This document shows, piece by piece, positions 34,606-56,186 of a stretch of 64,000 bases of DNA. The stretch lies in NCBI RefSeq assembly GCF_019655855.1, contig NZ_BPFX01000019.1:1-64000 (forward strand). The letters run 5' to 3'. The position numbers were made by a program, and so were the translations under genes. The notes below the pieces were generated by a model, which saw only the letters and a program-made list of their open reading frames with translations, was not told where the DNA came from and ran no database searches. This DNA comes from Pseudomonas paralcaligenes (lineage in GTDB: Bacteria; Pseudomonadota; Gammaproteobacteria; Pseudomonadales; Pseudomonadaceae). Within the stretch, counting starts at the first letter, position 1; each line of letters starts with the position of its first letter.

Positions 34606-34709
34606 CTCCCTCTCCCTTCGGGAGAGGGTTGGGGTGAGGGTGCCATGGGCCGCTCGCAGTCGCCTGGAAGCCCCTCACCCCCGCCCCCTCTCCCGGAGGG
34701 AGAGGGGAG
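34606..34709. repeat. inverted repeat pair of the DUF559-cassette type, without a gene
   Basis: Left arm 34606-34640 (CCCTCTCCCTTCGGGAGAGG palindrome, then GGGGTGAGGG) and right arm 34671-34709 (CCCCTCACCCCC, then the palindrome inverted) enclose only 30 bp. The layout, palindrome outside and GTGAGGG tail inside, is the same as that of the repeats around the DUF559 gene at 55177-55659. The right arm supplies the end of the yjiA reading frame. Confidence 0.75.
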
Positions 34710-54763: not shown

Positions 54764-55177
54764 ATGGGCAAGCCCATCACCATCGGCGTGTTGGCCCGCG
54801 AGAGCGGCGTCAACCTGGAGACCATCCGTTTCTACGAGCGCAGCGGCCTGCTGCCGCCGCCCCAGCGCAGCGACTCGGGATACCGCCACTATCAGGAAGT
54901 GGACGTGCGTCGGCTGCGCTTCATCCGCCGCGGCCGCGAACTGGGCTTCAGTCTGGAGGAAATCCGCAGCCTGCTGGACCTGGCCGCCCACCCCGAGAGC
55001 CCCTGCGACGCCGCCGACCGCATGGCACGCGAGCATCTGGACGCCATCGAGGCACGCATCCGCGACCTGCAGAGCATGCGCGCCGAACTGAGCAAACTGG
55101 CCGACTGCCACAGCGGCCACGCCGAGCACTGCCGGCTGCTGGAGGCGCTGGATAGCCGCGAGTGCTGCAACCATTAG
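54764..55177 (+). CDS. MerR-family heavy-metal-responsive regulator
   Basis: A 137-residue activator. The N-terminal MerR winged helix is ITIGVLARESGVNLETIRFYERSGLLPPPQRSDSGYRHY. A long dimerisation helix follows, then the metal-binding loop region with Cys81, Cys115, His119 and Cys123 and a terminal CC (Cys134-135). The pattern resembles Zn/Cd/Pb sensors (ZntR, CadR, PbrR), not copper or mercury ones. Divergent from the CDF gene, sharing the 19-bp-spacer promoter. The last base of its stop codon is the first base of the DUF559-cassette repeat. Confidence 0.9.
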   Translation: MGKPITIGVLARESGVNLETIRFYERSGLLPPPQRSDSGYRHYQEVDVRRLRFIRRGRELGFSLEEIRSLLDLAAHPESPCDAADRMAREHLDAIEARIRDLQSMRAELSKLADCHSGHAEHCRLLEALDSRECCNH

Positions 55178-55216
55178 TCACCCCTCTCCCTCCGGGAGAG
55201 GGGCCGGGGGTGAGGG
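55177..55216 (+). repeat. left inverted repeat of the DUF559 cassette
   Basis: It starts at the last base of the merR stop codon and contains the palindrome CCCCTCTCCC/GGGAGAGGGG. It matches the right repeat in 39 of 40 positions. Confidence 0.9.
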
Positions 55217-55256
55217 TCTACTAGGCTATGCAGAACCTCAGGAAGGGAATCCTGCC

Positions 55257-55658
55257 ATGCCTCATCACAAGACTCCGCTCAACCCCCTACAACTCGAGTT
55301 CGCCCGCCAATTGCGACGTGACGCCACCGACGCAGAACATCTGCTCTGGCGCCACTTGCGTGGCCGCCAGGTGGCTGGCTGCAAGTTTCGTCGGCAGCAT
55401 CCTATAGAGCCTTACGTTCTGGACTTCTACTGCGAGGCATTGAAGCTGGGGATCGAGCTGGATGGCAGCCAGCACTATCACGATGCGGGGCAGGCTCATG
55501 ATCGGCAGCGCGCCCAGCACCTAATTGGCAAAGGCGTACGTCTACTGCGCTTCAGCAATCGGGAAGTGTTGTTGGAGCTGCCAGCGGTGCTGGAAAGAAT
55601 TTTCATGGAGGCCATATCTCCCTCACCCCCGGCCCCTCTCCCGAAGGGAGAGGGGTGA
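55257..55658 (+). CDS. DUF559 family protein (Vsr/restriction-endonuclease-like fold)
   Basis: A 133-residue protein of the DUF559 family, which is related to very-short-patch repair endonucleases. Signatures: ARQLRRDATDAEHLLWRHLRGRQVAGCKFRRQHPIEPYVLDFYC, LGIELDGSQHYHD and a C-terminal VRLLRFSNREVL. The D/E residues (Asp in VLDFYC, Glu and Asp in IELDG) and the Gln (RRQHPI) fit a PD-(D/E)xK-like active site. The final 12 residues (PSPPAPLPKGEG) come from the right inverted repeat. A GGAA-type ribosome site is present. Function is unknown for the family; here its bracketing by near-identical inverted repeats suggests a link to them. Confidence 0.88.
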   Translation: MPHHKTPLNPLQLEFARQLRRDATDAEHLLWRHLRGRQVAGCKFRRQHPIEPYVLDFYCEALKLGIELDGSQHYHDAGQAHDRQRAQHLIGKGVRLLRFSNREVLLELPAVLERIFMEAISPSPPAPLPKGEG

Positions 55659-55659
55659 C
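55620..55659 (-). repeat. right inverted repeat of the DUF559 cassette
   Basis: The inverted counterpart of 55177-55216, including the stop codon of the DUF559 gene. One mismatch is in the palindrome loop. Confidence 0.9.
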
Positions 55660-55661
55660 AG

Positions 55662-56186
55662 CTAGCGGCTCCAGTCGCGCACCAGCGCTTCCGCTTCTTC
55701 CAGCGTATCGAAACCGGTCAGGGCGACGCGGCCGTCCGACACCGGCTCATCGACGATGGGCGCCAGGCGCACTTCGCCATCCACCAGGATGGCCAGGGGC
55801 CGGCCAAGATAGGTGCGGGTCAGTTCGGCCAGCACGGCGCGGCCATCGTCGGTCAGGGTCAGCACCACGGCCGGCTGGCCATCGGGCGTGAGGGCCAGCT
55901 CCGCCGTCTGCACATCCGCCTCGGTCAGCGCCGGCTGCGGCGCCACCCACAGGCGCACGCCGCTGTGGCGGTCGGTCATCGCCTGCAGGCCATCGGCGCT
56001 GGCGGTGCGTGCCGGGTGGATGCCGAGCTGGTGGTGTGCCGAAGGCAGCCGCGCATCGCTGGCGCAACCGGCCAGCAGTGCAAGGGCAAGGAGCCATGCA
56101 CATGCAACTGTGGGAGCGGCCTTGGCCGCGATATGGGCCAGAACAGAGCTTTCGCGGCCAAGGCCGCTCCCACAGAAAAGCTTCAT
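55662..56186 (-). CDS. lipoprotein with a SecD P1-head-like domain; signal peptide carries a REP insert
   Basis: A 174-residue predicted lipoprotein with lipobox LLAGC (Cys41). The C-terminal part (about 95-174) resembles the P1 head of SecD: VVLTLTDDGRAVLAELTRTYLGRPLAILVDGEVRLAPIVDEP and a following GFDTLEEAEAL. The ATG at 56184-56186 overlaps the stop of the DJ-1 gene (ATGA). It is the only standard start before the hydrophobic stretch. Residues 4-26 (starting FCGSGLGRE) are the translation of a REP palindrome, giving an abnormally long n-region. Such orphan SecD-head lipoproteins have no known role. Either the REP is tolerated or the protein is poorly exported. Confidence 0.7.
   Translation of the reverse strand: MKLFCGSGLGRESSVLAHIAAKAAPTVACAWLLALALLAGCASDARLPSAHHQLGIHPARTASADGLQAMTDRHSGVRLWVAPQPALTEADVQTAELALTPDGQPAVVLTLTDDGRAVLAELTRTYLGRPLAILVDGEVRLAPIVDEPVSDGRVALTGFDTLEEAEALVRDWSR
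56108..56175. repeat. REP palindrome inside a lipoprotein signal sequence
   Basis: A perfect 24-bp inverted repeat (CTGTGGGAGCGGCCTTGGCC plus four bases, 56108-56131; inverse at 56152-56175) with a 20-bp centre. It lies in frame in the 5' end of the lipoprotein gene. Confidence 0.9.

Follow-up and report, generated by a model that had tools for sequence, protein, structure and literature searches.

A DUF559 nuclease-like gene framed by BoxC/PIT triplex repeats in Pseudomonas paralcaligenes, and a possible partnership between enzyme and repeat

In a 64,000-nucleotide stretch of Pseudomonas paralcaligenes DNA (contig NZ_BPFX01000019.1, positions 1 to 64,000; hereafter the window), a gene for a small protein of the DUF559 family lies between two 40-base inverted repeats (Table 1). 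The repeats agree at 39 of 40 positions in inverted orientation and at 15 of 40 in direct orientation, and no other two 40-mers of the whole window reach 34 of 40 by inverted identity at a spacing of up to 700 bp. The first base of the left repeat is the final base of the merR stop codon (merR open reading frame, or ORF, 54764-55177), DUF559 is the single gene between the repeats, and the right repeat encodes its C-terminal 12 residues (PSPPAPLPKGEG) and its stop codon. An original prediction made from the sequence alone had reported the inverted match, the single gene with its repeat-encoded end, and the left boundary, and each was confirmed: the inverted match by recomputation, the gene's family by its PF04480 match, and the left boundary from the merR ORF. 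Repeat-like C-terminal tails are frequent among related proteins as well (84 of the best 120 of the 1377 nearest proteins fit a loose regular expression, some surely by chance). PF04480 has two hits in this genome, namely the window gene and a match inside a 1764-codon frame.

Each repeat unit consists of a 10-bp pyrimidine/purine hairpin with a TCC loop (in the right copy, GAA when read along the + strand) and a third block, GGGGTGAGGG, which faces the gene behind a CCG linker. This is the known BoxC/PIT/TM_ECO intrastrand-triplex repeat, for which the consensus CCCTCNCCCN3-6GGGNGAGGGN3GGGNGAGGG has been published (PMC4666352). The window repeat has the three blocks of that consensus (CCCCTCTCCC-TCC-GGGAGAGGGG-CCG-GGGGTGAGGG); because its arms of 10 nt are one base over the consensus, taking the arms as 9 nt gives a linker of 5. 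E. coli oligonucleotides of this type were reported to fold into intrastrand triplexes in vitro, while the origin of the repeat was called unclear and mobility activities were said never to have been found at its sites (Holder et al., 2015, PMC4666352). The main text of that paper contains none of the terms nuclease, endonuclease, DUF, or ycjD. So, where the original prediction knew of no description of such a system, the repeat itself had already been published, and it is the link to DUF559 that we did not find in print.

Table 1. Features of the DUF559 locus and a dispersed copy of its repeat (window coordinates)
Feature	Position	Strand	Sequence or remark
Left repeat, BoxC/PIT class	55177..55216	+	39/40 inverted match to right repeat
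Left repeat, hairpin arms	55181-55190; 55194-55203	+	CCCCTCTCCC; GGGAGAGGGG
Left repeat, linker	55204-55206		CCG
Left repeat, third strand	55207-55216		GGGGTGAGGG, toward gene
DUF559 gene, 133 aa	55257..55658	+	PF04480 E 1.5e-33
Right repeat, same class, inverted	55620..55659	-	
Right repeat, third strand	55620-55629		gene-facing
Right repeat, hairpin arms	55633-55642; 55646-55655		
Dispersed copy of repeat, matched core	34672..34694	+	not beside any DUF559 gene

Many bacterial genomes, that of E. coli among them, contain the repeat at scattered sites. Exact hairpins of the form CCCTCTCCCN{2,8}GGGAGAGGG occur 84 times in the genome from which the window comes and 0 times in the control. A looser motif matches 43 times, against 40 in a backwards-read control; as that pattern is nearly mirror-symmetric, its count alone is no proof of an excess. 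The dispersed copy within the window has 1 mismatch to the 23-base core (chance expectation 0.00). Several dispersed copies elsewhere in this genome (L004, L005, L009, L012, L021, L025, and others) are preceded by a second conserved palindromic stretch, about AGGCNGCTC...GCCT, which the DUF559 brackets do not have, and the dispersed unit may extend beyond the triplex core. Separately, a 24-bp perfect inverted repeat at 56108-56175 (CTGTGGGAGCGGCCTTGGCCGCGA, 20-bp spacing), which has several more copies in this genome, looks like a separate element of the repetitive extragenic palindromic (REP) type.

The only domain matches of the window protein are PF04480 and, weakly, PF18741, and a search against defense families gave only weak partial hits. 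A structural model (predicted local distance difference test score, or pLDDT, of 85.5; a model built without an alignment was discarded at 41.8) matches the Vsr / I-Bth0305I fold, and W31, R35, Q47, D56, E67, D69, H73, R85, and R98 are invariant in an alignment of 61 sequences. The protein is thus modeled as a small, stand-alone, nuclease-like protein of that fold with acidic/His active-site candidates. It differs from its structural relatives in context. Vsr, a mismatch endonuclease with Vsr-like relatives such as VsrA of Caulobacter, is linked to a cytosine methylase (PMC12907096) and nicks the T:G mismatches that this methylase gives rise to, whereas the window gene is linked to a dispersed repeat. 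The EDxHD homing endonuclease I-Bth0305I contributes the catalytic domain of an intron-borne enzyme, whereas the window protein is a free-standing, repeat-framed protein. NGO0050 of Neisseria gonorrhoeae (3hrl) is titled a putative endonuclease-like protein, with no function stated there.

DUF559 genes elsewhere are framed in the same way. A single search of public genomes, with the window protein as query, gave 61 loci, chosen regardless of repeats, and to these we added the window locus, 26 loci from the genus, ycjD of E. coli, and 16 loci from class genomes without canonical BoxC, for a total of 105, of which 101 were testable. (Near-duplicates such as L038/L039 and L128/L141 were kept.) A flank hairpin was defined as pyrimidine-rich, with a stem of at least 7 and one mismatch, lying within 250 bp upstream of the gene or between 60 bp before and 250 bp after its stop; these criteria, and the limit of E <= 1e-25 for a full DUF559, were fixed after an initial inspection of the data. 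Neighboring ORFs of the same loci served as controls. Hairpins are present on both sides of 61/101 DUF559 genes and 8/170 neighboring ORFs, and on at least one side of 93/101 and 99/170, the latter often via a shared flank. With exact 7-nt arms, 50/101 DUF559 genes and 1/170 neighbors are bracketed (23/48 and 1/97 outside Pseudomonas), and 15/101 DUF559 loci, including ycjD, have no such hairpin on either side. The original prediction had named bare DUF559 genes elsewhere, or equally frequent repeat pairs around unrelated genes, as results that would speak against it. Instead, most of the DUF559 genes tested carry such flanks and pairs are rare at their neighbors.

Exact-arm brackets come from records titled Pseudomonas, Dyella, Rhodanobacter, Aeromonas, Brevundimonas, Hoeflea, Gallionellaceae, Nitrosomonadales, Deltaproteobacteria, Verrucomicrobia, Nitrospinota, Ignavibacteriae, Eubacteriales, and Clostridia. 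At the two Chloroflexi loci and the Bacteroidetes locus, a single side scores, and the loci from Planctomycetota and Archangium run into contig edges. Among the 16 class loci without canonical BoxC (from 14 genomes), 10 (from 9 genomes) have an inverted pair whose score exceeds that of each of 200 shuffles. The position of the gene varies: four proteins that neighbor it in the window have no tblastn hit at the nine closest loci.

One explanation for the brackets is coincidence: the repeats might settle in loose intergenic sites around dispensable genes, DUF559 among them. Neighboring ORFs do often have a hairpin on one side (37/170 on the left and 70/170 on the right, with flanks partly shared with DUF559). 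We nevertheless consider coincidence very improbable, given how rarely neighbors are framed on both sides, the lack of any BoxC-like hairpin at three loci of the REP-associated tyrosine transposase (RAYT) and at three weak-DUF559 loci, and the association across whole genomes (in the genus and among families) described below.

The arms of the hairpin vary by lineage (CCCTCTCCC, CCTTCCCCC, CCCCCTCCT, TCTCCCCCTT, CCCCCTTT, and others). Despite this variation, the block that follows the purine arm, in many cases after a linker of 3 nt, mirrors that arm, with G facing G, and A or T facing A, which is the pairing of antiparallel purine-motif triplexes. For the left repeat in the window, the mirror score of the third strand is 1.00 on the gene side, against 0.50 on the far side. 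Across 122 flank hairpins, the gene-side score has a mean of 0.85, compared with 0.70 for the far side and 0.68 for shuffles; a score of at least 0.85 is reached by 78/122 toward the gene and by 36/122 on the far side, where some hits are a second, paired repeat. In framing repeats, the third strand tends to face the gene. For mirror-asymmetric arms, the mirror reading is better than the direct reading by 47 to 8, with 24 ties. When the comparison is limited to hairpins that have a third strand (at least 0.85 by either reading), the counts are 40 mirror, 1 direct, and 8 ties, and for distinct arms only they are 25, 0, and 6. In the chosen matches, G lies opposite G in 273/277 cases and A or T opposite A in 94/100, and since those matches were selected by the same pairing rule, the contrast between mirror and direct readings is the sole independent test. 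The mirror rule supports a fold of the repeat into an intrastrand triplex. As a plain single strand, the hairpin is only modestly more stable than shuffles (z of -1.3 to -2.4, from a program without a third-strand model). A division into two end types (linker CTG on the left and TTA on the right) fit five bracket pairs and the repeat pairs of one genome, G110, and was dropped as not general. Pairs face outward in G110, and 4/5 E. coli pairs face inward (by the coordinates in the table of PMC4666352).

The repeat and the gene are strongly associated across genomes. In a genus sample of 149 genomes, all 27 with a full DUF559 have at least one BoxC hairpin, against 21/122 of those without, and at least 10 hairpins are present in 22/27 and 10/122, respectively. 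In a class sample of 323 genomes, at least one repeat is found in 51/65 genomes with a full DUF559 and in 52/258 without one; collapsed into 164 numbered families of sampled genomes, the counts are 42/53 and 27/111 (P = 2.5e-11). Among DUF559 genomes from mixed phyla, 17/22 have the canonical hairpin, and G110, which also carries DUF559, has 465 complete triplex cores against 0 in the backwards control. Weak or larger DUF559-domain hits do not track the repeat (at least 5 repeats in 1/15 genomes that have such hits alone). RAYT (PF01797) could have been the driver instead; we rejected this because it shows no association with the repeats in the genus (45/134 against 3/15, P = 0.39). Eight genus genomes without a full DUF559 are rich in the repeat, with 31 to 150 hairpins (G013, G016, G027, G028, G029, G047, G063, and G117), and in G013 and G047 RAYT is absent as well. 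These may reflect loss of the gene or another driver.

Some co-distribution would also be expected if the enzyme had a housekeeping role, as a Vsr-like repair nuclease or a remover of harmful triplexes that repeat-rich genomes keep, with the flanking repeats serving only to regulate or terminate the gene. This explanation does not account for two-sided repeats at a rate far above that of neighboring ORFs, for third strands that face the gene, or for a C-terminus encoded by the repeat. Also, PMC4666352 cites no activity of the element as a terminator or promoter. We consider a housekeeping role unlikely, although it is one of the two main rivals of the reading proposed below.

E. coli K-12 has a DUF559 gene, ycjD (PF04480, E = 1.4e-49), and BoxC no. 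9 (1351204-1351239, by the coordinates tabulated in PMC4666352) sits behind it. A second, degenerate BoxC overlaps the 3' end of ycjD, and in strain S1-SRB-02-B this copy fits the consensus. At least 80% of a ycjD-plus-BoxC query is present in 3364/5426 E. coli genomes. We counted BoxC in 60 records taken at even steps down that ranking, subtracting the place at ycjD where the gene was present. Genomes with ycjD have 13-32 BoxC-type places (median 20, n = 37) and those without it have 2-20 (median 12, n = 23); as E. coli is clonal, this contrast represents few independent events. No clean empty ycjD allele was found in the six ycjD-less strains compared at this locus (L143-L147, L152), because a TetR-type regulator and an RND efflux adaptor occupy the position behind fabI. 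In E. coli strain 167 (L153), ycjD is annotated as incomplete and a stretch is missing from the locus. A control search with PF04480 was positive in Caulobacter and Corynebacterium and not in the control E. coli, despite the match of K-12 ycjD; the control may be a strain without ycjD.

One E. coli repeat differs cleanly between strains. Between pstB and pstA, K-12 carries a BoxC that three aligned strains lack, with 92 extra bases in the long form and AACCGTGT at both ends of the insert as an 8-bp direct repeat. Among 40 records listed for this site, 23 have the short form and 16 the long form. A 39-base query from the left part of the insert has matches in 2089 genomes, and all of these but one contain it a single time. 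Because of this single-copy part and an internal AACCGTGT, the insert is more than a bare repeat. Either gain or precise loss would account for the difference at this site. No clean empty sites were found at the BoxC places tktB-ypfG, adk-hemH, and yjdP-phnP (which have different sequence or deletions), and frlR-yhfS looked no better. In the first 60 kb of six genomes of the Pseudomonas genus, a single repeat site was comparable, and the repeat was present in 3/3 comparable genomes. The original prediction had looked to close relatives for empty sites beside merR, and this expectation was not borne out: in the two relatives with both neighbors (G013 and G028), the place is taken by unrelated genes, and no remnant of DUF559 was picked up by tblastn (best E 1.2).

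These comparisons bear on the other main rival, in which the gene is a homing-type cassette: the nuclease cuts targets, the gene and its brackets are copied into the break, and the repeats are targets or homology arms that spread otherwise. Here, too, some co-distribution would be expected. However, most repeats are far from DUF559 genes (the genome of the window has 84 hairpins and one small DUF559 gene), and while the loci differ among relatives, we found no clean cassette-free allele at merR or ycjD. In one genome, G178, three near-identical DUF559 cassettes (L128, L141, and L187) have terminal inverted repeats of ~100 bp and direct repeats of 10-11 bp. We dropped these as evidence of self-transposition: their tip, AGGTATCTACACAA, also occurs at five places without a listed inverted partner, so that movement by a transposase in trans is just as likely. 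Overall, a homing-type cassette seems to us rather improbable.

We propose that the DUF559 protein is the partner nuclease of BoxC/PIT-class triplex repeats and that it cuts the folded repeat and so spreads it or keeps it in place, a reading toward which we lean with modest confidence. The repeat, when single-stranded during replication or repair, would fold as a hairpin plus third strand; the Vsr-fold nuclease would recognize the folded repeat and nick or cut there; and repair or recombination would then copy the repeat elsewhere or retain it. We also count in favor of this reading a report that a Caulobacter DUF559 protein triggers the SOS response of a methylase mutant (PMC12907096). As the agent that spreads or maintains the repeat, the enzyme is a good candidate.

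Several observations weigh against this proposal. First, binding or cutting of the repeat by the nuclease, and any spread beyond mere maintenance, are what we infer and not what we observed, and PMC4666352 states that a triplex footprint was not seen in vivo. Second, the association is imperfect. Among genus genomes, 10/122 without a full DUF559 carry at least 10 repeats and 5/27 with it carry fewer; at least one repeat is found in 41/221 class genomes that lack any DUF559 hit. Of the 21 class genomes with at least 5 repeats and no DUF559 hit, 11 have a family in which a full DUF559 was sampled, the pattern expected from loss of the gene ahead of the repeats, and for the remaining 10 the genomes sampled from the family include no DUF559 relative. 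The similarities of proteins and repeats are weakly correlated (r = 0.24, P = 0.002, 42 loci), which could be due to a crude comparison of arms or to loose specificity, and our P values, except for the family collapse, ignore relatedness. Third, some DUF559 loci look bare (L061, L079, L084, L092, L093, and L106; the last matches for L092 and L093 are partial). Finally, at ycjD, we saw no BoxC copy on the 5' side, and the gene scores zero exact-arm hairpins; strains 190 and FCI48 have ycjD yet the short pst form; and the pst insert contains a third AACCGTGT and bases beyond the repeat.

The closest known parallel to the proposed partnership is RAYT (TnpA-REP) with REP/REPIN, where RAYT has been proposed to spread or keep REP (PMC8266576). 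In both cases, a nuclease gene is framed by inverted palindromic repeats that are dispersed as singles and as inverted pairs, and the repeat is found genome-wide and is co-distributed with the gene. In contrast to RAYT, the window protein has no HUH/Y1 domain and has another fold, and the repeats show no association with RAYT; the repeat is a triplex-type hairpin whose foot is GTCA in the window copies and GGTC in E. coli, not the GTAG tag of REP (PMC3733652). The absence of the HUH domain and of the GTAG tag means that this system is not a RAYT. Most likely, it is a RAYT/REP-like partnership with an unrelated nuclease. The original prediction had drawn this parallel, with a nuclease that mobilizes or maintains its own repeat. 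Co-distribution with dispersed repeats supports the parallel, in which the nuclease may either mobilize or maintain its repeat.

The repeat and the protein family are each already known. BoxC/PIT/TM_ECO was published with the architecture of the window repeat and with many dispersed copies, but without a partner gene or spreading agent; to that description we add the link to DUF559, the arm variants, and a mirror rule that holds across lineages. In the open-licence PubMed Central literature, which lacks most subscription papers, we found no publication that joins DUF559 with BoxC/PIT, nor any that describes the wider triplex variants or the cross-lineage mirror rule. A broader claim, which we put forward tentatively and rate somewhat short of an even chance, is that a Vsr-fold PD-(D/E)xK nuclease recognizes and spreads the triplex as a widespread new class of mobile repeat, with autonomous forms and gene-less (dispersed or paired) forms in several phyla, of which BoxC/PIT would be the E. 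coli trace and ycjD its engine.

A family of nucleases framed by the repeat makes the question of BoxC/PIT directly testable in E. coli K-12, through ycjD. If the proposed partnership is correct, then DUF559 gains a substrate, and the problem that RAYT and REP address would have a second solution, with an unrelated enzyme. It would also mean that a DNA triplex has been preserved through coordinated changes in the sequence of its strands.
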